Shown: one piece after another, positions 6,801-50,102 of the stretch | Position numbering within the stretch: position 1 is the first letter of the stretch | Layout: every line of letters starts with the position of its first letter | Origin: Flavobacterium psychrotrophum | GTDB taxonomy: Bacteria; Bacteroidota; Bacteroidia; Flavobacteriales; Flavobacteriaceae | Direction of reading: 5' to 3' | DNA length: 64,000 nucleotides | Assembly: GCF_003403075.1 (NCBI RefSeq) | Contig: NZ_CP031557.1 | Location: 3,844,001 to 3,908,000 of the forward strand | The notes under the pieces: model-generated | Databases searched by the model: none | The model's input: only the letters and a program-made list of their open reading frames with translations | Told to the model about the DNA's origin: nothing | Translations under genes and position numbers: made by a program

Positions 6801-9800
6801 TGTAGTAGTTCCTGTAGTAGTTTCAGCATATACATATAATGTCCTGTCAGCTGTAACAACAGTTCCTGCAGGCACCACTGTACCTCCGCCATTAGCAGCA
6901 GTATAGTAGTTACCGGTAGTAAGCGATGGTAATGTATAACTAGCACAAGCTATGATATTTTGAAATGTACCAACAGAAGGATTCGGTAATATTGTAATTA
7001 TAAAATTACTTTCGGCAGGACAAGATCCATCATTTAAAGATGCATAAACATAAAGCGTAGTTGTAGTCGTAATTAAATCGCCTGCAAATTTCTGTACATT
7101 TCCTGTAGTTGTTGGACCACCCGGCATAGTAAAATACCTGCTTCCTGTAGCAAGGCCAGGCAGAGTGTAGCTTCGGCAAATTGTTTGATTACCAGGGTTA
7201 GCAGCTGTTGCACCCAAAATTGTAACTGTAAATTGCCTGAATCCTCGACAGCCATCAGCAGAAGCAGGGGTTGTAGCATATAACACTGTCGTTGAAGTAA
7301 TGAATGAACCCGGCTCGTGGCGTACACCTGTTGCGAAAGGACCTTCAAAGTAAGCTTCAACCTGAGGATTAACCGGTAACTGATAGCTACCACATGCAGA
7401 TGCATTTGCTATAGGATTGATTACCGGATTTGGATTTATTGTCAGAGCAAAGCTACTTTCTGAAAAACAGCCAGGATTGTTAGGGCTTACTCTGTAAATA
7501 TATAATGTTTGCGAAGTTCTTACATCGCTACCGGCAGGATATAGTGTACCTGTACCACCTGGCCCAGAATAAAAGTTAGCTCCTGGAATAGTAGGAATTG
7601 TATAGCCAAAACAATACGATTGTGCACCATATACAGGAACCGGCTGCACATTATTTATTGCTACTTCAAAACTTTTTTCATTAAAGCAAGTTCCATCAGG
7701 ATGTGGCTTATAAACATAAATAGTTTGCGTAGTTGTTATTTGGGCATTTACTGCAAGCTGGGTACCGCCGCCAGTAGGCCCGCCCGGAGCAGTCCAGTAA
7801 GTATTACCTGCGGTAAGCGCAGGCAACCTGTAAGGCACACATTGATTAACATCGGCAGGATCATCGGCAGTAACAATGGTTACCACAAAAGAACTCGTAT
7901 TAGTACACGAAGCCGCTGTAGGAATATAAAAATATATTGTTGATGTAGTGCTTATTACAGTACCCCACGGAATTACTGCACCCCCGCCATTAGCAGCAGT
8001 GCGATATTCCTGACCCGGGTCAAGGTTAGGCAGCGTATAATTATTACAAGCTGTAACGGGAGCCGGTGTTACCGCACCCGGTAGCACTGTAATGGTAAAA
8101 CTGCTTTGATTAGAACAGTTAGCATTAGTATTATATATATAAATAGTTTGTGTACTTACTATCTGGCTGTTTGCCGGCAGCAATGCTCCTGTTCCGCCGC
8201 TACCGGTGTAGTAATTTCCGTCTGTAATTACAGGTAGTGTATAGCTACCGCAAACCGTTTGGGTTGTACCTGTAGATACAGCAGGCAGTGGATTTACCGT
8301 AATGGTAAAAGAAGTTACTGCATAACAAGAAGTATTACGGCTGCTTTGCACCCTTGCATAAATAGTTTGTGTACGCACTGTATTTGTAGTGGTACTCTGG
8401 TAATTTCCGGCAACCACAATATTACCTGTACCCGCATTTGCATCTGCAAGAGTAGTATAATATGTTACTGTAAAATCTGCCGGTGCCTGGCTGCCTAAAA
8501 TAGCAGCATCCTGAGCAGTAAGATTAAAAATAGCAGTTCCTGTGTTAATTGTACCCTCACATGCCGAAAGCCCTGCCGCAGGCTGAGTTGCCGTAGGAGT
8601 AGGAATTGTCATTAAATCGAAAGGAACTACCACATAACAACTACTGTTATGTGATTTTACACGAGCATAAATAGTAACTGTACCACCGGTTGTTGTGTAA
8701 GCAGCAGCATTAACTGCTCCGGTACCATCATTGGCAGCCAATGCGGTAGTATGATACGTTACCTGTGTTGCAGCATCAAGTCCTGTTTTTAAAGATGGGG
8801 TATTTAGTACCAAATTATAAGTATAACTTCCTCCCGAAGGACAGGCATACAAAGTAGTGGCGGCACCCGGAACAAGTTGCGGTGCAAACTCTATAGTTAC
8901 CTGTTCATCTACAGCACAAGCAGTAGCGGTATTAGTTATACGCACATTATATGTACCTGTTGCATTAACAGTAAGTGAAGAAGCTGTACCTATAACAGCT
9001 GCATTACCTACCCTGGTCCAGGCAAAAGTATATTGAGAACCTGTAAGTCCTGTATTAACTGTATAAGAGCTACCCTGGCACAGCGCAGTATTATTTGCAA
9101 GCGAAAGATTATCTCCAACCACCTGCTGGCCTAAGTTAAATGCTCCCTGAGGGAAGAAAACAGCCGAGTTGTAACGGCCATCATTACCCAATGTATTATT
9201 TGGGTTAGCATCGCCATCATCTGCAATTACTATTTTAATGTGGTAAGTTGTACCTGGAACAAGATCATTGGCCGAAGCAGTAAGCTGCACTGTTTGCCCC
9301 TCAAAATTGGTCGCTGCAGTTGGCGCCGCGCTACCACCGTTAAATACACCAAAATACTGAGAATTAACTGAAAGACATGTAGCAGTACCACTGTTAAAAG
9401 CACTGTTCCTGATGTTAGCAACAGAAACAGGAAGGTTAGTATTTGGCACAGTTGCTATATTTCGGTATGCCGCAGGGCTACCTGCAACTTTTATCAATAT
9501 AGCAAATCCGTCTTTAGAGTTACACTGATATTGCCCATACTCTTCTGAAGCAAAGATATAAGGTATTGATATATTAGGTGTTGCCGCAACAAAATCAAAC
9601 TCTAAAACCGTAGCATTCATACTACGTATAGGCGTTGTTGCTGCAAAAGCGGCCTGAAGATCTGCATCGCCCAGCCACGTTTGCGACTGCACACTATTAT
9701 CTGAAGACACACTGGTATTAGGACCGGAAGCCGTTGCGGCATCTCCCGTTACAAGCACAACACCAGATGCCATTGGAAAAGCGGCATTTGAGTTTGTAAA

Positions 9801-41490: not shown

Positions 41491-41511
41491 ACCAGTGGTC
41501 CCACCTGGGCT
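41491..41511. repeat. attL: copy of the tRNA 3' end
   Basis: gtggtcccacctgggct at 41495-41511 is identical to the end of the intact tRNA gene (50028-50044); including four flanking bases, 20 of 21 match. It marks the left boundary of the integrated element. Confidence 0.88.
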
Positions 41512-41649
41512 TAACCTTTGCAAAAAAGCACAAACTGAAATTAGCACATAAAATCCATAAAACCCTTTATTTGCAAAGGTTTTACGAAGATACGCTTTAT
41601 CTTGATTATTGTAACGGTTTGCGATAAATTGTCTGAATTTGCAAACTAC

Positions 41650-41669
41650 CGTACAAATGCCGTACAAAT
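41650..41669. other. Left arm-type sites (candidate)
   Basis: CGTACAAAT occurs at 41650-41658 and 41661-41669, exactly 11 bp apart, between attL and the integrase gene. The right end has a matching pair. This is consistent with arm sites for the integrase, or with operators controlling its gene. Confidence 0.6.
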
Positions 41670-41686
41670 AATTGGTTATATTTGCC

Positions 41687-41694
41687 CTTAAATC
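41687..41694 (+). promoter_or_regulatory. Candidate -7 box for the integrase gene
   Basis: TATATTTG, an exact TAnnTTTG match, ends 6 bp before the ATG at 41701. Its start point would lie at or next to the start codon, so a nearly leaderless transcript is expected. Confidence 0.45.
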
Positions 41695-41700
41695 AATTTT

Positions 41701-42963
41701 ATGGCTACAGTTAACTACTTATACCGTTCTACAAAAGAAAGCGCAAATCTAATACTCAGATTGCTCTATAGGCACGACAATAAAGACCATGTTATAGGTG
41801 CTAATACCAAATGTGAAGTTTCAAAGGAATACTGGAATAAGTATCACAATCAGAAACGCATTAAAGATATTGACCTGTTCGATAAACAGGCTGAAATTAA
41901 GTCAGAATTAAAAGAAGTAGAAAAGCATGTATTGAAAGCATTTAATGCTACCCAAACGATCGACGTAAATAAAAAATGGCTTCAGACTCAAATAGACAAC
42001 TATTATAATCCACCTGCTGCCCCAGTTAGTTTGCCGACAGAGTTAGTGAAATATATGGATATTTACATTGAGTATAAGCGTGGTGAGTTAACCGAAACTA
42101 CGATAAGAAAATGTAATGTAATAAAGCAAATGGTAACGCGGTATCAAACTGACCGCGACAAAGCACTGCTTATTTCTGATGTAGATACACATTTTAAAAA
42201 GGATTATGAAGATTATTGTGCCAATAATGGATACGCTCCCAGCACAGTAGCTAGAAGCGTTCGCTTTATAAAAACGGTTTGCAGGCATGCAAAATTTAAT
42301 GGACTAGAAACCAATCATCAGCTTGACGGCATAAAAACAAAACAGTATAAAACAGAAATCATATATCTAACGAAAGCCGAATTAGAAACAATTTCGGAAA
42401 CTACAGGGTTAACAAAATCTCTGGAAAATGCACGCGATTGGCTACTTATAAGCTGTTATACAGGACAGCGCGTTTCAGACTTTATGCGTTTCACTAAAGA
42501 CTGGATACGCTATGAAACGAATAGGCAAGGGGAAAAGAAACCTTTAATTGAATTTACACAGGTAAAAACAGGTAAAAAAATGACTATACCCTTATCAAAA
42601 CTGGTAATTGATATATTACAAAAGCGAAATGGAGAATTCCCACGTGCTTTATCCGACCAAAAATATAATGCCTATATAAAGGAAGTATGTAAGGCAGCAG
42701 GGCTAAACCATGAAGTATACGGCAGTAAAAAAGTTGAAACATCTCCCGGAAGTAAACTTTACCGCAAAGACACAGGATTGTTTGAAAAATGGGAACTGGT
42801 AAGTTCGCATATAGGTAGGCGCACCTTTGCCACAAATAACTATGGTATTATACCAACATCTTTTTTAATATATGTAACCGGACATAGCACAGAATCTATG
42901 TTTTTGGCATATATTGGCAAGAGCAATAAAGACATTGCAATGGAGTTAACTAATTATTTTTAA
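41701..42963 (+). CDS. int: Tyrosine recombinase (integrase)
   Basis: 420 residues. An N-terminal arm-binding region (to about 110), a SAM-like core-binding domain (about 111-205) and a catalytic domain follow in order. Catalytic residues seen are Arg257 in CYTGQRVSD, His370 and Arg373 in SSHIGRRTF, His395 in VTGHSTESM and Tyr404 in LAYIG. A Lys in VKTGKKMTIPL (about 289-293) is the likely beta-hairpin lysine. It catalyses site-specific integration and excision at the tRNA repeat. The gene lies 190 bp inside attL and points into the element. Confidence 0.95.
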   Translation: MATVNYLYRSTKESANLILRLLYRHDNKDHVIGANTKCEVSKEYWNKYHNQKRIKDIDLFDKQAEIKSELKEVEKHVLKAFNATQTIDVNKKWLQTQIDNYYNPPAAPVSLPTELVKYMDIYIEYKRGELTETTIRKCNVIKQMVTRYQTDRDKALLISDVDTHFKKDYEDYCANNGYAPSTVARSVRFIKTVCRHAKFNGLETNHQLDGIKTKQYKTEIIYLTKAELETISETTGLTKSLENARDWLLISCYTGQRVSDFMRFTKDWIRYETNRQGEKKPLIEFTQVKTGKKMTIPLSKLVIDILQKRNGEFPRALSDQKYNAYIKEVCKAAGLNHEVYGSKKVETSPGSKLYRKDTGLFEKWELVSSHIGRRTFATNNYGIIPTSFLIYVTGHSTESMFLAYIGKSNKDIAMELTNYF

Positions 42964-42970
42964 TGAACAC

Positions 42971-43624
42971 ATGGCAGAAAATTTTGTACGAACAGGGTAT
43001 AAACAATTCTTTAAAATGAATTACTCTTTAGGCCTTAAGGAATTTATAAATAATAACCCTTTAGCTGATGAGGTTTTCTACATTAAATTTCTACTAAAAA
43101 ATCAACAAAAAGAAATTCTTAGCTTAGAAAACGATATTTCTATTTTTTTAGACAATGACGTTAACCTTGATAAAATATCAAAAAGTAAAGTTAAAAGTGC
43201 CAAATATATAGAAAGTAAAACAAAGCGAGATCACTTTTGGATGTTGAAAGAATACTCCTCTTTTCTTGAAGAAAGGCTTACAGAATTGACAGCACCTAAA
43301 GCACCATTAATAGAAAGACTTCTTGATTTATCATTAAGCGAAATTGCCATGTTTTTTTATTACTCTAATAAAAACATTACGCAACTAAACGCAAATGCAA
43401 TAGCTCAAGAACATGGACACTCTTCAGGGAAAAAATTACTTCAATTATATAACGAATGCAGTTATAGAGCTAATAGAATTGCATCGGGTGAAACTGAAAC
43501 TAAGCAAAAAAACAAGGTCAAAAGATTAGAGAAAATAATAAGTCTATTATTTTCAAAAGGACTTGAAACTTTAAAGGCACAGCAGGATTTAAATGATTTG
43601 AATGAAAATTTTAAAAATCAGTAA
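42971..43624 (+). CDS. Unknown helical protein of the element
   Basis: 217 residues, starting 7 bp after the integrase stop, so probably co-transcribed. It is lysine- and leucine-rich and mostly helical, with possible coiled-coil stretches (LLKNQQKEILSLENDISIFLDNDVNL and KQKNKVKRLEKIISLLF). A central segment SEIAMFFYYSNKNITQLNANAIAQEHGHSSGKKLLQLYNEC resembles a HTH-like region seen in uncharacterised proteins of Bacteroidota mobile elements. No membrane segment. A role in excision or replication control is possible from position only. Confidence 0.6.
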   Translation: MAENFVRTGYKQFFKMNYSLGLKEFINNNPLADEVFYIKFLLKNQQKEILSLENDISIFLDNDVNLDKISKSKVKSAKYIESKTKRDHFWMLKEYSSFLEERLTELTAPKAPLIERLLDLSLSEIAMFFYYSNKNITQLNANAIAQEHGHSSGKKLLQLYNECSYRANRIASGETETKQKNKVKRLEKIISLLFSKGLETLKAQQDLNDLNENFKNQ

Positions 43625-43702
43625 CCAGTTATAACCGGTTACCACCTCTCTACCCGTCATAATCTTTGCAATAGAAATCATTATTAATTTAAACTATTGC
43701 AG

Positions 43703-43963
43703 ATGAATAATCCATTTGAAACGATTGACAAACGCCTTAATTCCATTGAGGCACTTCTGGCCAGCTTACAGCAAATACCCCCGATTAAGATGGAGGAGGT
43801 TGACCTACTGACCCGCGAACAGGCCTGCGACCTTCTTAAAATAAATAGTAGTACCTTATGGCACTGGACGAACCGAGGTAAGGTTAAAGCCTACGGGATT
43901 GCCAACAGGCGATACTACAAAAAAAGCGAGCTTTTAGAGTGTCTTAAACCATTAAAGAAGTAA
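43703..43963 (+). CDS. Helix-turn-helix protein, excisionase/AlpA-like
   Basis: 86 residues from ATG 43703 (an in-frame TTG precedes it). A short coiled N-terminus (ETIDKRLNSIEALLASL) is followed by a winged HTH_17/MerR-like domain: LLTREQACDLLKINSSTLWHWTNRGKVKAYGIANRRYYKKSELLECL. This pattern is common in element-encoded excisionases and AlpA-like regulators. Its gene directly precedes the primase-helicase (gap 3 bp), so it probably controls or joins replication and excision functions. An imperfect gtaacc/ggttac palindrome near 43620-43641 could be its operator. Confidence 0.83.
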   Translation: MNNPFETIDKRLNSIEALLASLQQIPPIKMEEVDLLTREQACDLLKINSSTLWHWTNRGKVKAYGIANRRYYKKSELLECLKPLKK

Positions 43964-43966
43964 GCT

Positions 43967-45346
43967 ATGCAAGAGGAAAATATACCAGTGCTAAGTATCC
44001 TTGCCCATCTACAAAATAAAATTCAGCCTATTAAGTTTGCAAGTTATTTTGACGACACAGCAGAGATCAACAAGCTTCAGAAAAAGCATTACCTTATACC
44101 AGTAGTTGATAATCTACTCAACGTAACAAACCAAGAAAACTATAGTCTATGTCGCAAAAATGAAGTGGTATATCTTTTTAATGGGGAATATTGGCAGCAG
44201 CTTGATACGCCAATATTTAAAGATTTTTTAGGGGAAGTAGCACTACAATCGGGAACGGATAAGTACGATGCTCGCTTTTTCCAGTTTAAGGACGATTTAC
44301 TAAAACAGTTTATGTCAGATGCCTCTTTAAAAGAAATACACCTGCCAGAAAAGGTTTTGATAAATCTAAAAAACGGAACATTTGAGATTAGCGAACAGAA
44401 CCAAGAGTTAAGAGGTTTTAATAAGTCCGATTTTATGACTTATCAGTTACCATTTTCTTACGACAGTTCTGCACGATGTCCAAAGTTTACTAATTTTTTA
44501 AATCAAGTTTTACCCGACAAAGAACTGCAATTGGTTTTGGCCGAGTACTTAGGATACATATTTATACGTAACAAAGTATTGAAGCTTGAAAAGGTTTTGA
44601 TACTTTACGGTTCAGGGGCAAATGGCAAAAGTGTTTTGTTTGAAATTATAAATGCCTTAGTAGGTAAACAAAATATTTCTGTATACAGTTTGCAATCCTT
44701 AACGGACTCCAAAGGTTACAATAGAGCTATGATTTCACACAAACTATTAAATTATGCAACAGAGATAAATGGCAAACTCGATACGGCTGTCTTTAAGCAG
44801 TTATGTTCAGGAGAACCTGTGGAAGCCCGTCTGCCCTACGGTATGCCATTAACAATTGAAGACTACGCAAGATTAATCTTTAATTGTAATGAGCTACCAA
44901 AAGAGATTGAGCATACAGACGCATACTTTAGAAGGTTCCTAATAATACCGTTCAAAATTACTATACCTCCGGAAAAGCAAGATAAGGAATTGGCGACCAA
45001 GATTATTGAAGATGAGCTTTCAGGCATTTTTAATTGGATAATAGAAGGGCTTCAGAGGCTATTGGCAAACAGGAATTTTACGCATAGTAGTATTATTGAA
45101 AATCAGGTAAAAAAATACAGAGTAGAGAATGACAGTATATTAATGTTCCTTGAAGAAGAAAATTACGAAAAATCTATTTTAGAAAACATTAAACTGGCTG
45201 CATTATACCTTGATTATAAAATTTTTTGCCAAACAAATGGTTTTATAGCATCCGCTGAAAGAGCTTTTTCAAAAAAACTGGATAGCTTAGGTTACGAAAG
45301 AAAGCGAACAAGTTTGGGGTACTCGATTTATATCAAAAAAAAATAG
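43967..45346 (+). CDS. P4/D5-type primase-helicase
   Basis: 459 residues. A D5-N-like middle region (ARCPKFTNFLNQVLPDKELQLVLAEYLGYIF) precedes the SF3 helicase core: Walker A LYGSGANGKS (residues 214-222), then KLLNYATEINGKLDTAVFKQLCSGEPVEARLPYG, RLIFNCNELP and YFRRFLIIPF. This is the phage/plasmid primase P4-family C-terminal helicase. The N-terminus is short and lacks the obvious primase catalytic motifs, so it may act only as a helicase or depend on another primase. It would drive replication of the excised element. Confidence 0.9.
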   Translation: MQEENIPVLSILAHLQNKIQPIKFASYFDDTAEINKLQKKHYLIPVVDNLLNVTNQENYSLCRKNEVVYLFNGEYWQQLDTPIFKDFLGEVALQSGTDKYDARFFQFKDDLLKQFMSDASLKEIHLPEKVLINLKNGTFEISEQNQELRGFNKSDFMTYQLPFSYDSSARCPKFTNFLNQVLPDKELQLVLAEYLGYIFIRNKVLKLEKVLILYGSGANGKSVLFEIINALVGKQNISVYSLQSLTDSKGYNRAMISHKLLNYATEINGKLDTAVFKQLCSGEPVEARLPYGMPLTIEDYARLIFNCNELPKEIEHTDAYFRRFLIIPFKITIPPEKQDKELATKIIEDELSGIFNWIIEGLQRLLANRNFTHSSIIENQVKKYRVENDSILMFLEEENYEKSILENIKLAALYLDYKIFCQTNGFIASAERAFSKKLDSLGYERKRTSLGYSIYIKKK

Positions 45347-45427
45347 TTTAAATAGCTGCATATTATACACTATATACATGATATATGTAGGTAATGCAAA
45401 ATATGTAGCATTAAAAATATCTTTCTT

Positions 45428-45583
45428 ATGAAAATTAAAAAATACAAGCTGGTTAGAGAGCCACAATTAATAGAATTTGAAAAACAGTTAAATAAACACC
45501 TGAAGGAAGGGTGGCAGTTATATGGTAATCTTACATTAGATACTGAAAACTACTTATATCAATCAATGATACTGATGGAATAG
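45428..45583 (+). CDS. DUF1737-like small protein, 51 residues
   Basis: A small gene in the 45347-45883 gap: ATG 45428 to TAG 45583. The sequence begins MKIKKYKLVREPQLIEFEKQ and contains LNKHLKEGWQLYGNL, the YKLV...L...VN..L.eGWqlyG pattern of DUF1737. These small proteins of unknown role are frequent in phages and mobile elements. A 16-bp perfect terminator stem follows 18 bp after the stop, supporting a real transcription unit. From 45642 to 45883 I see no gene. Confidence 0.72.
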   Translation: MKIKKYKLVREPQLIEFEKQLNKHLKEGWQLYGNLTLDTENYLYQSMILME

Positions 45584-45601
45584 AAATATGCTTATAAAAT
45601 A

Positions 45602-45641
45602 AATATACACCTGAATATGACAGTGTATTCAGGTGTATATT
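45602..45641. terminator. Terminator, 16-bp perfect stem
   Basis: The arm 45602-45617 pairs perfectly with 45626-45641, loop of eight. There is no long T-run, but it cleanly separates the replication genes from the opposite-strand gene downstream. Confidence 0.75.
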
Positions 45642-45883
45642 GTAATTAAGCTGCTGCCCTAAACCGACCCAACCTCAACATTCAATATAACATTTGCTGC
45701 GCTATAAGCATGAAAGACAATGCAATTACAGCCTTTTTAAGACTGTTATATTTAGCAAGCAACAAAATATATAACAAATCCAAAAAGTGTGTTGAGTGTA
45801 GATGTATAGGCGTGGGCAACACATTGCATTAATACTTATAAATCGTTTACAGTACCTTACGACTTGTTAAGTCCTTTTCGTTA

Positions 45884-46279
45884 TTACTTCTCTTCCAGCT
45901 TCAAATCTTCGCATCTCGCCTGCCCAAGTTCATGGCCTATAACTTTGCACTTATAATAAGTCCTCATCAATGCGCCAAATTCATTTTGAGAATCCACATA
46001 GCTTAACACTATAAATGTAGTATCATTTATTTGTTCAATTGTTTCGTCTGGCTGGTATGCAAACTTAGCACTTCCAGGCGACTTTAATAATTTCTCTACA
46101 CATAGGTGTGATTGTACAACAGCGTCCTGTTTGGTGAATTTTGGTTTTGTAACCTGCTCTTTAGCATCGTTATTAAAGAAACACGATTTGATACTAAAAA
46201 ATCCTATAGCAGCTATTGCTATCATAATTGCACAGCCTTTAGCGGCCTGTTTTGGGTCTTGCTTTGGTTTTTGTGTCAT
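45884..46279 (-). CDS. Unknown membrane-anchored protein of the element
   Basis: 131 residues, opposite to the other element genes. A basic N-terminus (MTQKPKQDPKQAAKG) precedes one membrane helix (about residues 15-32, CAIMIAIAAIGFFSIKSC), with the rest outside the cytoplasm. The outer part (SHLCVEKLLKSPGSAKFAYQPDE, QINDTTFIVLSYVDSQNEFGALMRTYYKCKV) resembles small phage or plasmid proteins with a CVExxLKSPxSAKF motif. Its function is unknown. Its start overlaps one copy of the composite repeat at 46261-46446, so the repeats may control it. Confidence 0.65.
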   Translation of the reverse strand: MTQKPKQDPKQAAKGCAIMIAIAAIGFFSIKSCFFNNDAKEQVTKPKFTKQDAVVQSHLCVEKLLKSPGSAKFAYQPDETIEQINDTTFIVLSYVDSQNEFGALMRTYYKCKVIGHELGQARCEDLKLEEK

Positions 46280-46446
46280 GGTGGTAATTTGGTGATTAAA
46301 AAAACTTTACAAATAAAAAGAGCGTGAACTACATCACGCTATCACCAAGGTTACCACACCTTACCAAAGCAAATGACATAGCCACGCCCAAACGGGCGCA
46401 CTACATACATTATAAGCTTTGGTTTCGTTTTGTGGTAATTCGGTGA
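46261..46446. repeat. Composite repeats: two direct, one inverted, with inner palindromes
   Basis: The unit is gctttggt, a 5-12 bp spacer, gtggtaa, 2-3 bp, then ggtga. Copies lie at 46261-46295 (plus), 46342-46370 (inverted) and 46416-46446 (plus). Between copies two and three, cgccc/gggcg forms a central hairpin (46385-46398), making a nested palindrome of about 90 bp. agcgtga/tcacgct (46321-46340) is another stem. This suits an origin with iterons, or an operator array for the adjacent genes. No gene lies in 46280-46707. Confidence 0.65.
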
Positions 46447-46707
46447 AAGCAATAAATGTAATCAGTACGTAATATTTTACTTGAGCAAATATAACACCTT
46501 TGTCTTATTAATAAATAAATGTATATTGGATAAATCTTAATCCCGCCAGTATTTTGGTCAGTTATAGCATCCCTTACTCAAACACTTTTTTACGTCTTAA
46601 GCATCCCCATTAATAGGTATTTTTACCTGAATTGAGGGATTACTCATTTTTATCATAAAATTATAATATATATTTACGCTAGCTTTAGATTGCAGATCAT
46701 AAATTAT

Positions 46708-47538
46708 ATGCTTGAAAATATTTCTATTTTAAAAAAAAAAGATCCTAAACCTTTTTTGAGATGGGCTGGGGGAAAGAGGTGGCTTAAAAAGGAGTTAGAC
46801 CTATTTGTGGATATAAAAAACTATGAAGGCTATCATGAGCCATTTGTTGGCGGTGGAGCTATATTATTTCATTTCCAGCCAACTCAAGCGTTCATTTCAG
46901 ATACAAATAAAGATTTAATAGACACTTATTTGGCTGTAAAAGAAAATCCCAAGTCAATAGTAGAGATTTTGAAAGGTTTAAAAAAGGATAAAGACTCATA
47001 TTATGAAATCAGATCTAAATCTTTTAATGACCAATTTGAAAAAGCTGCACAATTTATTTATCTAAATCAATTTTCCTTCAACGGCATATATAGAGTTAAC
47101 TCCAATGGAGGATATAATGTGCCTTATGGATATAGAGAAAAGTTTAACTTCGATTTTGATAACATTTTCTATGTTAGTGATTATTTACAGTGTGTTAATA
47201 TCACTCATTGTGATTTTCAAGACTCTCTTGTTAACATAAACGAAGGTAGTCTTATATTTCTCGATCCTCCATACACAATTGCACACAATCAAAACGGTTT
47301 TATTCAGTATAATCAAAAAATTTTCTCTCTAGATGATCAATATAGGCTTGATAATGCTATCAATCAAATAAAAGCCGATGGAGCATACTACATTCTTACC
47401 AATGCGGCTCATAAAAAAGTGAAGGAAATTTTTGAAAAAGAGAATGACACAATCAAAGAAATTTCACGAGCTAGTGTAGTGGGAGGTCGGAATTCTTCTA
47501 GGGGTCAATATTCAGAGTATTTATTTACAAACATATAA
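46708..47538 (+). CDS. D12-class DNA adenine methyltransferase (Dam-like)
   Basis: 276 residues from ATG 46708 (a TTG lies six codons upstream). The AdoMet-binding start PFLRWAGGKRWL (residues 15-26), FVGGGAILF and the catalytic LDPPYT (DPPY at 186-189) appear in the Dam/D12 order. It should methylate adenine N6 in a specific sequence; the recognition site cannot be told from sequence. The DGQHR/HEPN gene starts 4 bp after its stop, so the two are co-translated. A pure orphan methyltransferase is possible, but the partner suggests a defence or modification-dependent pair. Confidence 0.92.
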   Translation: MLENISILKKKDPKPFLRWAGGKRWLKKELDLFVDIKNYEGYHEPFVGGGAILFHFQPTQAFISDTNKDLIDTYLAVKENPKSIVEILKGLKKDKDSYYEIRSKSFNDQFEKAAQFIYLNQFSFNGIYRVNSNGGYNVPYGYREKFNFDFDNIFYVSDYLQCVNITHCDFQDSLVNINEGSLIFLDPPYTIAHNQNGFIQYNQKIFSLDDQYRLDNAINQIKADGAYYILTNAAHKKVKEIFEKENDTIKEISRASVVGGRNSSRGQYSEYLFTNI

Positions 47539-47542
47539 TTCT

Positions 47543-49888
47543 ATGGCGTTTTTATCAGACACAGAGGTTAACAGAATTAAATCAGAGATTACACAGGACA
47601 CGTCGTCACTAGGTAAAATATATAAATCAAAGAAAAGCCAATTTGAAAATATAGCTGTCAACCATTCAGATGTTGTAAAGTATAATTCAGATGGCTGGGA
47701 GGAATATACAAAGCCTTTAAAGACAAAAACGCCATTACGCAGGTTAAAGGGTTTTTTTACAAAATTCGAGGACGATATATGGTGTCAATTCTATGAACTA
47801 GGATTTAGAAAAATTAGTTCAAAGCCAATTCTTTTACCGTACAGTAAAAATGAAGGTGAATTAGAAGAGATTAATATCGTAGCAATACACGATGAAACTA
47901 TTTTTATTATCACCTGTAAAGCCAATGAAGTCTTTTCTAAAGCAGAATCCTTTGCTGAAGAGTTTAGTACATTAAAGCAAAAACTAGATGGCTTTAAAAA
48001 ATTATTTAGGCAAATTTACGGCGATAAATATAAAGTTAAATATATTTTTGCTACGCATAATATAAGATTTGATCTTGATAGTCCAGACTTGGAGGTGCTT
48101 AAAAGCAGTAAATCTTTCCTCTATGATAACAATGCTTATAGCTATATTAACAATATCATAAAAAGCTATAAATCTTCATCGCTTTATCAATTTTTTGGGT
48201 TGATATTTAAAAATGAACTGATTAATCTTGATAAGATCGAAATTCCCGCTGTGCAAGGCATGATGGGTAACAAAAAATATTACATGTTTTCTATTGAACC
48301 TCATTTGCTTTTAAAGATGGGATTTATTTTACATAGAACAAAGGCTAACGTTAGTGAGTTTCCAACGTATCAGAGATTACTTGTGCCCAAACGCCTGAAA
48401 GGCATAACAAAATTTATCGATGATGGAGGCTATTTTCCAAACTCTATTATCGTAAATTTTAATAGCTCAAAGCACTCAATACACTTCGATGCATCATCAA
48501 AACTCACGAGTTCAAATTCATGTTTTGGCACGCTCAAAATCCCAAATTCTTATGGAATCGCCTATATTATCGACGGACAACACCGAGTATATGGTTACGC
48601 TGGATCTAAATATTTAAAAAACAACACAATACCTGTTGTAGCATTCGACGGACTTGATACCATAGAGCAATTGGAAATTTTTATGGATATTAATGAGAAT
48701 CAAAAGGCCGTAAGTCCAAGCCTTAGACTAGACTTGGAGGAAGATTTATTTTGGGATTCTGATAGGGCTGATAGCCGAATAAAGGCTTTAAGGTCATCTA
48801 TAACAAAAGAATTGTCAAATTCTAATTCTAGTCCTTTATATAACAAAATATCTGTGGGCGAAGATACCTCTATCTTAACATTTAAGCCTTTCACTATAGC
48901 CCTAAGTAATAGCGGTTTGCTTCCTGTAGCAAAAGGAAATAAATACTCTGATGACTCAATAAAATATTCTTTATATGACGAATCTAATAAAGATCATAAT
49001 CAAGAAATGACAAACGCCAAGAGTAATATTGGAATATTACTCAAGTTATCTTATGACTTTGTAGAGCAGAATTATTCAGATATTTTTAAACGCGAAAAAT
49101 ATTTTATAGTATCGAATAGAGGTACGTATGCGTTTATATGTCTAATAGGTAGTTTAAACCGTTTTTTAATTGACGAAAATACTTTGACAAAGAAATCAAC
49201 TCCTGAAGAACGATTTGAACAAATAAGGAAATACTTAAAAGCATTGCTTGACTACGTCAGTGATATACCTAAAGAGGAAGAAGAAAAACAGTTAAGTCTG
49301 CTTGGTGCGGGTGCAGATATAAAATGGCTAAGAAATTTTCAAAGCATTGTAAATAAAAAATATAACGAATTTAATCCCGCAGATCTGATCGACTGGAATG
49401 AAAGGCAAAATGACGAGTTGCAAGATAAAGGAAGAAAATTTGGTGTAGAGATTGAGAAGTTCATGAAAAAATCCACATTATCTAGATTAAAAGAAATATA
49501 TGGAGACAAATGGGAACTTGAAATTGGCAGCATAAAGCGTGATTGCGTTGACAGAGCACTGCAAGAAGACGAGAAAAACCACAAAGAAGGCCTTGATAAA
49601 GAAAGTTCTGACTGGAAAGATATGTTCAATATTAATGATTACAAAACTATTATTGAAAAACACTGGACAAAGAAACCTGAAAAGAACAATGGGAATTTTA
49701 AGACCTTTGAAGATGAATTCTCAATAAATATCGGTAATGGTTTTAATAGCAAGACAGACAAAATAAAATGGATATCTATATTTAATTCGCATAGAAACCT
49801 TTGGGCACATGAAGGCACAAAAGAAAAAAGATTAAATAAAAATGAAGTTGAGTTTTTAGAAATGATACATGGACATTTTTATAATTAA
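47543..49888 (+). CDS. DGQHR-domain protein with nuclease-like N-terminus and C-terminal HEPN motif
   Basis: 781 residues, cytoplasmic. Region 1 (about 75-175) looks like a restriction-endonuclease fold: WCQFYELGF, EEINIVAIHDETIFIITCKANE (E108/E109, Lys126) and KYKVKYIFATHNI. Region 2 holds the DGQHR motif (IIDGQHRVYGYAG, residues 344-348) with FMDINENQKAVSPSLRLDL, the pattern of DndB and DpdB proteins. Region 3, the C-terminus, is a Swt1-like HEPN candidate: FNSHRNLWAHEG, an RxxxxH pair at Arg751 and His756. HEPN domains with this pair are usually RNases. Its pairing with the methyltransferase suggests a modification-linked defence in which DGQHR senses or binds DNA. The nuclease assignment is inference. 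Confidence 0.8.
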   Translation: MAFLSDTEVNRIKSEITQDTSSLGKIYKSKKSQFENIAVNHSDVVKYNSDGWEEYTKPLKTKTPLRRLKGFFTKFEDDIWCQFYELGFRKISSKPILLPYSKNEGELEEINIVAIHDETIFIITCKANEVFSKAESFAEEFSTLKQKLDGFKKLFRQIYGDKYKVKYIFATHNIRFDLDSPDLEVLKSSKSFLYDNNAYSYINNIIKSYKSSSLYQFFGLIFKNELINLDKIEIPAVQGMMGNKKYYMFSIEPHLLLKMGFILHRTKANVSEFPTYQRLLVPKRLKGITKFIDDGGYFPNSIIVNFNSSKHSIHFDASSKLTSSNSCFGTLKIPNSYGIAYIIDGQHRVYGYAGSKYLKNNTIPVVAFDGLDTIEQLEIFMDINENQKAVSPSLRLDLEEDLFWDSDRADSRIKALRSSITKELSNSNSSPLYNKISVGEDTSILTFKPFTIALSNSGLLPVAKGNKYSDDSIKYSLYDESNKDHNQEMTNAKSNIGILLKLSYDFVEQNYSDIFKREKYFIVSNRGTYAFICLIGSLNRFLIDENTLTKKSTPEERFEQIRKYLKALLDYVSDIPKEEEEKQLSLLGAGADIKWLRNFQSIVNKKYNEFNPADLIDWNERQNDELQDKGRKFGVEIEKFMKKSTLSRLKEIYGDKWELEIGSIKRDCVDRALQEDEKNHKEGLDKESSDWKDMFNINDYKTIIEKHWTKKPEKNNGNFKTFEDEFSINIGNGFNSKTDKIKWISIFNSHRNLWAHEGTKEKRLNKNEVEFLEMIHGHFYN

Positions 49889-49913
49889 TCCATAATTTGT
49901 TGTATCATCTTTT

Positions 49914-49931
49914 ACCTACTAGTCAGTAGGT
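49914..49931 (+). terminator. Terminator after the DGQHR gene
   Basis: acctact (49914-49920) pairs with agtaggt (49925-49931) around a 4-nt loop, followed by atttt. It ends the methyltransferase-DGQHR operon. Confidence 0.6.
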
Positions 49932-49953
49932 ATTTTCAATATTATAACACAGC

Positions 49954-49973
49954 CGTACAAAAATCGTACAATT
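49954..49973. other. Right arm-type sites (candidate)
   Basis: CGTACAAAA (49954-49962) and CGTACAATT (49965-49973) repeat every 11 bp in the same orientation as the left pair. They lie 55 bp from the right core repeat. Confidence 0.6.
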
Positions 49974-49980
49974 ATAAAAT

Positions 49981-50023
49981 AAAAAAACCTCAACTAATTG
50001 ATAATCAATTTCGTTGAGGTTTT
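49981..50023 (-). terminator. Element-borne terminator for the tRNA gene
   Basis: aaaacctcaac (49984-49994) pairs with gttgaggtttt (50013-50023), with an inner aattgat/atcaatt stem. On the minus strand seven T follow. It lies immediately after the tRNA 3' end and inside the element, replacing the terminator left behind at 41452-41483. Confidence 0.8.
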
Positions 50024-50044
50024 ACCCGTGGTCCCACCTGGGCT
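50024..50044. repeat. attR: tRNA 3' end repeat
   Basis: The 17-bp copy at 50028-50044 is the 3' end of the complete tRNA gene and is identical to 41495-41511. Confidence 0.88.
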
Positions 50045-50102
50045 CGAACCAGGGACCACCTGATTATGAGTCAGGTGCTCTAACCAACTGAGCTATAGGA
50101 CC
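50029..50102 (-). tRNA. tRNA with CAU anticodon (Met, or Ile2 with modified CAU)
   Basis: 74 nt on the minus strand, first base at 50102. The acceptor stem ggtccta pairs with tgggacc (one G-T); the D arm has agctcagttggttagagc; the anticodon loop ctcataa holds CAT between cctga and tcagg; the T arm has ggttcgagccc. The discriminator base is A and CCA is not encoded. Elongator Met and lysidine-type Ile2 share this loop and cannot be separated by eye. The gene is the integration target: its 3' end was supplied by the element. Confidence 0.93.

Follow-up and report, generated by a model that had tools for sequence, protein, structure and literature searches.

What is the function of a two-gene locus in which the gene for a Dam-like DNA methyltransferase is followed, 4 bp later, by a gene for a 781-amino-acid (aa) protein carrying a DGQHR domain between two putative effector domains? 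The locus lies on a mobile element in Flavobacterium psychrotrophum, within a 64,000-nucleotide stretch referred to here as the window (assembly GCF_003403075.1, contig NZ_CP031557.1, positions 3,844,001 to 3,908,000, forward strand). A first-pass annotation, made from the letters of this stretch, proposed that methylation marks self DNA and that the large protein senses unmodified or invading DNA and attacks DNA and/or RNA. The results presented below show that the methylase and the large gene are a real, recurrent unit. They may constitute a methylation-gated immunity module in which a ParB-fold reader restrains a DNase and/or an RNase, the RNase being the likely output in the window copy; this is our preferred reading, for which we consider the case evenly balanced.

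A recurrent methylase–DGQHR pair

The first gene encodes a D12-class methylase that matches Pfam MethyltransfD12 (PF02086; 5.5e-44, 151 bits against a cut-off of 22) and the NCBI dam model TIGR00571 (204.2 bits against a cut-off of 114.9), and that contains both of the motifs previously noted in it, RWAGGK (of the FxxWAGGK type) and DPPY. Its closest solved structure is DpnM (2DPM; 2.1e-48), followed by Escherichia coli Dam (2.5e-26). It is the single D12 match in its own genome, and D12 genes are uncommon, with any such match found in 20 of 60 genomes, this one included. Both genes of the pair lie on the + strand, the methylase open reading frame (ORF) ending at 47538 and that of the large protein beginning at 47543.

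The first-pass annotation stood or fell with homologues of the large protein usually occurring beside the methylase, and they do. Genome contigs were scanned with patterns that sit in the large protein, so the pairing count is not biased toward methylases, and the best 80 of 210 relatives were kept. A D12 methylase was adjacent or one gene off in 75 of these 80 loci: 73 were detected by phmmer, and partial methylases at contig starts in two more (L044 and L054) with a hidden Markov model (HMM). Three methylase-negative loci have just 2, 1 and 191 bp of upstream sequence (L014, L034 and L071, respectively). With 7.9 kb upstream, L065 has an adjoining DpnII gene and no methylase was found in it; L005, with 8 kb upstream, has neither methylase nor DpnII gene, and is the single well-flanked locus of this kind among the 80. 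A small PDDEXK_3 gene (7417-7809) is located just upstream of the large gene in L005. Almost all the phmmer methylases (72 of 73) are upstream on the same strand, the other (L004) being downstream on the opposite strand; 57 of the 72 end no more than 101 bp from the large gene or overlap it, and the remaining 15 are 275-885 bp off, 14 of them with a DUF7226-type gene, a DpnII-family gene, another gene or the remainder of a split methylase in between.

Whole-genome searches for the large protein gave matches in 4/60, 9/395, 8/395 and 6/398 genomes (the sets overlap and each contains the F. psychrotrophum genome; the first two counts include domain-only matches). A full-length match was present in 12 distinct genomes, again including this one, and the methylase accompanied it in all 12, although the L134 genome resembles the L001 genome. 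In viral contigs, a methylase was found in eight of the nine full-length loci (of 30 returned), upstream in four and downstream in four, with one methylase on each side in L103 and a split methylase in L096; the other viral-contig matches covered the DGQHR part and had no D12 methylase. Comparison of the top-120 protein lists yielded 27 contig sizes in common, versus about one expected. Large-protein and methylase distances also co-vary (r = 0.45 for 83 pairs selected by score, length and a gap < 1200 bp; maximum of 1000 permutations, 0.10), and the correlation reaches 0.73 for the 53 nearer pairs (permutation maximum, 0.22). In L006 and L008, the large proteins are 61% identical to that of the window and the methylases 33%, so the writers have been swapped at times.

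DpnM and E. coli Dam are GATC enzymes, and GATC is our best guess for the mark of the pair; it is a likely one because of the kinship of the methylase to these two enzymes, a shared target signature, and the presence, in five loci, of a DpnII-family gene immediately ahead of the large gene. The signature is an NG[LI]xR...NVP stretch, which we take to hold base-contacting residues (GATC contacts) in Dam; of the 74 partner methylases that were aligned, 73 contain it, that of the window among them, the exception being the split methylase of L059. Two GATC sites are found within 50 bp at the methylase start (46695-46744), and may permit methylation-dependent regulation or be there by chance.

Domains of the large protein

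The large protein has 2523 database relatives at E <= 0.001 among 7998 proteins scored, and the best 120 of these, which were listed, are 778-794 aa long. An AlphaFold2 (AF2) model based on a 72-row alignment had a predicted local distance difference test (pLDDT) score of 87.2 and a predicted template modelling (pTM) score of 0.68. The whole model gave no Foldseek match in the PDB at E <= 0.001, nor did the profile of the whole family match any PDB sequence; against viral models there were 13 matches at E <= 0.001, the best two unnamed and the named ones being occlusion, DNA-sulfur-modification or GmrSD N-terminal proteins (1.3e-5 to 2.4e-4). A Pfam scan of 50 relatives (E <= 0.01) detected DndB in 49, NERD in 18, Hjc in nine, Card1_endonuc in eight, HEPN_Swt1 in two, and HEPN_Apea and HEPN_RiboL-PSP in one each. 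DndB was the sole match in the window copy, with no NERD, Hjc, Card1_endonuc or HEPN match. A phage collection search with the large protein returned one record, matching the DGQHR part alone. Profiles and models together support the three-region layout originally suggested for this protein.

The middle region is a DGQHR/DndB-family domain (TIGR03187, 123.6 bits against a cut-off of 58.9; Pfam DndB, PF14072, 64.4 against 29.1), with the QR, DGQHR and FxxxN motifs described for such proteins (PMC4619093; the papers cited here by PMC number were available in part, and statements resting on them refer to those parts). DGQHR and QR277-278 are invariant in the 195 sequences aligned, and both DGQHR and the RxxxxH pair are at the positions that had been reported. 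The closest folds to this domain in the PDB were the ParB-family proteins Noc, PadC and ParB (E 0.08-1.1), and the named viral models mentioned above also count among the evidence for it. Membership of the DndB and DpdB equivalogs was considered and rejected (31.7 against 328 bits and 54.5 against 300 bits, NCBI cut-offs), and the cut-off of the DGQHR_dnd_1 model was also missed widely.

The N-terminal region is likely to have a PD-(D/E)XK fold: its top Foldseek rows in the PDB, of moderate score (E 0.005 to about 1), were Cdn1, VC1899, Card1, Can2, McrC and Hjc, all of which we take to be PD-(D/E)XK nucleases. The nuclease-like TCK segment of the first-pass annotation is indeed present at residues 124-126 of this region, as a degenerate ExK motif; most relatives have ID...ECK, whereas the window copy has IN...TCK. 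The motif Lys is kept in 185 of the 195 aligned sequences, and as K126 in the window copy. The nearest relative (P0002, 74%, among the best 120 of the 2523 matches) has both the nuclease Asp and the nuclease Glu. The proposal that the window copy attacks DNA is not supported, because Asn111 and Thr124 replace the predicted catalytic Asp and Glu.

The C-terminal region was modelled as all-helical, with RxxxxH at a helix end, and the best HEPN_Swt1 score among relatives was 20.1 bits, against a cut-off of 27.5. The motif, these weak profile matches and a tabulated relative (see below) make a HEPN domain probable rather than proven, since no PDB match was obtained for this domain by Foldseek or by profile search. 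Of the folds anticipated for the two ends of the protein, the N-terminal one thus stands at moderate scores and the C-terminal one on its motif and weak profiles. A DUF7226-type gene (147-155 aa) is found upstream of a DGQHR protein lacking the HEPN motif in 12 loci (L036, L038, L040, L044, L046, L047, L049, L050, L051, L054, L058 and L061); it was identified by Pfam in two of them and by HMM in all 12, and its N-terminus looks helix-turn-helix (HTH)-like by eye.

Proposed mechanism and alternatives

According to the preferred reading, the pair would act like a restriction–modification (R-M) system, except that its reader could be switched and would control several effectors. The Dam/DpnM-like enzyme would methylate adenine, most likely in GATC, across the host genome, and the ParB/DndB-fold DGQHR domain would scan DNA as a nucleoside triphosphate-dependent reader. 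Methylated sites would keep the reader in, or reset it to, a harmless state; unmethylated sites, on incoming phage or plasmid DNA or on a genome in which methylation has failed, would release the effectors, which in most relatives would be a PD-(D/E)XK DNase and a HEPN RNase. In the window copy, RNA cleavage by the HEPN domain would result in growth arrest or abortive infection (Abi), the RNase being the likely output here because the DNase site is degenerate, with DGQHR and RxxxxH both intact. If this is correct, ordinary adenine methylation would join phosphorothioate defence as a setting for the ParB/DndB-fold gate, two genes would suffice for compact immunity with DNA and RNA output, and a role would be provided for a large family whose members, where named, are now labelled 'DGQHR domain-containing' or 'DndB'. 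E. coli has Dam, and the gating idea is therefore directly testable.

Several observations weigh against this reading. DndB and DpdB, which among named DGQHR proteins come closest, have their roles in modification. The C-terminal domain, assigned to HEPN on the grounds given above, has no PDB match. The HEPN motif is missing in 29 of 203 relatives (distinct sequences, from 219 after the removal of those identical over residues 31-700), and RNase output is therefore not universal; these losses, chiefly in gut Bacteroidales and Clostridia loci and in two viral contigs, correspond to two changes on a FastTree/Fitch count (a single tree with midpoint rooting and no support test). The window shows no GATC avoidance, with 101 sites against 105 expected. 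Lastly, some relatives of the large protein lie beside a radical S-adenosylmethionine (SAM) gene without a D12 methylase, and gating by N6-methyladenine is therefore not universal.

These relatives come from three loci. On pNL1 and on an Agrobacterium plasmid, the large protein is encoded near a 334-342-aa DGQHR protein, a radical-SAM-annotated gene and a HATPase gene; the 13-14 kb that were fetched contain no D12 methylase. In L101, a methylase-less viral contig, the large gene shares 14 bp with an overlapping gene, whose product has 41% identity to the radical-SAM protein of pNL1. Pfam Radical_SAM scored below its cut-off in all three loci, and CxxxCxxC is present in both aligned proteins. 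Thirteen plasmid records, some of which duplicate a single plasmid, had a match to the radical-SAM family. In 11 of these the matched stretch carries a DGQHR gene annotation, and in five of the 13 there was also a match to the large protein, spanning half of it or more. Such loci are possibly another DNA-modification system. A second reading, which we hold only tentatively, is that the large protein is an adenine-methylation reader with exchangeable parts, the same protein serving different writers and being able to lose either DNase or RNase if the other stays. The writers may be several GATC-type D12 lineages, or a radical-SAM enzyme perhaps laying an unknown DNA mark.

The DpnII-containing loci suggest a guard or addiction module, in which the protein would monitor host GATC methylation and kill or arrest the cell when methylation falls, backing up R-M and stabilising the element. 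The DpnII-family gene is situated between the methylase and the large gene or just before the latter (in L065, where no methylase was found), and one mark could therefore serve two effectors; a HEPN output suits self-targeting, the pair is carried on an integrative element, and PD-lambda-5 was considered a compacted form of RM+Abi (PMC9519451). However, DpnII is present in just five of the loci searched, in which other restriction genes were not surveyed, and sequence does not separate guarding from the direct sensing of unmethylated phage DNA. We consider such a module unlikely.

It also seems improbable that the pair is an ordinary Type II-like R-M system, with the large protein as a restriction enzyme cutting unmethylated GATC through its PD-(D/E)XK domain, and the window copy decaying. 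Among the 203 relatives, 184 have a strict D-[ED]-K triad, and the methylase is in a tight operon with the large gene, as would be expected of such a system. Nevertheless, 13 of the 203 have a severely degraded nuclease site, reached through at least 11 changes on the same count, and 12 of these 13 retain RxxxxH; a DpnII-family gene is already there in five loci, and a plain Type II enzyme needs no fused ParB-type and HEPN-like domains. Overall, 156 of the 203 relatives keep both the strict triad and RxxxxH, 28 lack RxxxxH alone, 18 lack the strict triad alone (by a Lys-to-Arg change in some, perhaps tolerated) and one (L078) lacks both. Effector exclusivity was tried as a statistic and discarded as not significant, because this single double loss compares with about 2.7 expected if losses are independent, and because HEPN loss amounts to about two events.

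We regard as very unlikely a role for the DGQHR protein in modification, in the manner of DndB, the regulator of Dnd, or of DpdB, which helps with insertion in Dpd, the end domains then being accessory. Although DpdB and DndB are its nearest named families and a small DGQHR protein accompanies the radical-SAM gene in pNL1-type loci, D12 methylases work alone, and nuclease triad and RxxxxH are kept together in the 156 relatives just mentioned.

The carrying element

The ORF ends, the recombinase and a repeat at tRNA-Met all agree with the claim that the two genes lie 4 bp apart in a mobile element. The element is about 8.5 kb long (41491-50044), is located at tRNA-Met and is bounded by a 21-base direct repeat, the first copy of which adjoins the integrase (Table 1). 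Its cargo is the methylase and the large gene, its other genes encoding the integrase, an HTH protein and a D5-type primase, and it has the appearance of a small integrative element of the satellite type. Five relatives in viral contigs are related to it by their primase (32-35% identity). The window integrase and primase each matched just one locus among those fetched (L001-L135).

Table 1. Features of the pair and its carrying element (window positions), and of related loci (positions within each locus)
Feature	Position	Strand	Basis or remark
D12-class (Dam/DpnM-like) N6-adenine DNA methyltransferase, 276 aa	46708..47538	+	profiles, motifs; ORF-list start TTG 46690
781-aa PD-(D/E)XK / DGQHR (ParB-DndB fold) / HEPN-like protein	47543..49888	+	profiles; AF2 model
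N-terminal PD-(D/E)XK-type domain (likely), ~residues 62-200	47726..48142	+	Foldseek; Pfam matches in relatives
Residue 111, Asn at metal-binding position (Asp in 188/195)	47873..47875	+	alignment
Residue 124, Thr at ExK position (Glu in 187/195)	47912..47914	+	alignment
DGQHR/DndB-family domain, ~residues 232-460 (QR277-278, DGQHR344-348, FxxxN380-384)	48236..48922	+	profiles, alignment
DGQHR motif	48572..48586	+	195/195 aligned sequences
C-terminal helical HEPN-like domain, residues 608-781	49364..49885	+	AF2 pLDDT 92 (modelled alone); HEPN_Swt1 in 2/50 relatives
RxxxxH motif RNLWAH (R751-H756)	49793..49810	+	R, H invariant in 46 selected HEPN-bearing sequences
Candidate attL-type repeat	41491..41511	+	20/21 bases identical to 50024-50044
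Tyrosine recombinase	41701..42963	+	Phage_int_SAM_5 5.6e-9, Phage_integrase 8.2e-5
HTH_17 protein	43697..43963	+	profile match
D5/DUF5906-type primase-helicase	43967..45346	+	profile match
Candidate attR-type repeat	50024..50044	+	within 3' end of tRNA-Met (50028-50102, - strand)
DpnII-family genes	L065 7027-7938, L079 7051-7956, L080 1015-1926		Pfam
DpnII-family genes	L130 600-1499, L135 588-1499		HMM built from L065, L079, L080
Large DGQHR protein by radical-SAM-like gene	L093 5857-12355, L094 5872-12576, L101 7917-11442

Comparison with known systems

No named system in the PADLOC 2.0 library corresponds to the pair, and no description of it was recognised in the literature searched; in that library, the large protein is classified only as DpdB-like and the methylase as a Type II or orphan methyltransferase. 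The available parts of papers on Dnd and BREX (PMC10853773, PMC12839542) mention NERD, ParB and HEPN components and not this pair. The suggestion that the pair is uncatalogued therefore holds for the system, but not for the HEPN-ParB fusion itself, as a Swt1-like example, Saro_3948, was tabulated in 2013 (Anantharaman et al., PMC3710099, Table 1). Saro_3948 shares the DGQHR and C-terminal HEPN layout with the window protein. Its table entry carries no methylase pairing, and the pNL1 gene lies by radical-SAM, DGQHR and HATPase genes. The pNL1 protein SARO_RS17535, which matches the window protein and has a HEPN_Swt1 score below cut-off, is presumably Saro_3948, judging from plasmid and architecture.

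PD-lambda-5 resembles the pair in being prophage-borne and RM+Abi-like, with a predicted methylase (PMC9519451). The PADLOC PD-Lambda-5 _B model matched the window methylase weakly, other PADLOC models doing far better, and membership was rejected, as none of the 50 large-protein relatives was matched by a PD-Lambda-5 model (E <= 0.001). The PADLOC candidate PDC-M34 was also rejected: its B models (185 and 192 positions) matched 80-110 C-terminal residues in L093, L094 and L101 rather than a whole protein, and had no match in the window copy. The likeness to DpnII R-M lies in DpnM, the closest solved relative of the methylase, and in the DpnII-family genes of the five related loci; the window pair differs in having no DpnII gene, and its 781-aa protein is outside the DpnII family.

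DndB and DpdB share the DGQHR domain and its QR, DGQHR and FxxxN motifs, but their models cover 338-370 positions, against 781 aa for the window protein. Membership of the GmrSD/SspE/DndI group was rejected, as no DUF262 or DUF1524/HNH Pfam match was found in the window protein (E <= 0.1) or in 50 relatives (E <= 0.01). SspE and DndI are ParB-superfamily NTPase readers fused to a nuclease and gated by a DNA mark, and resemble the pair in coupling a ParB/Srx-superfamily domain to a nuclease alongside a DNA-modifying module (PMC11662687, PMC13251355); they provide a precedent for the gating proposed here. They differ in their phosphorothioate mark, C-terminal HNH and DUF262 family, whereas the window pair combines a DndB-family DGQHR domain with a PD-(D/E)XK-type region in front, a HEPN-like region behind and a D12 methylase as partner.

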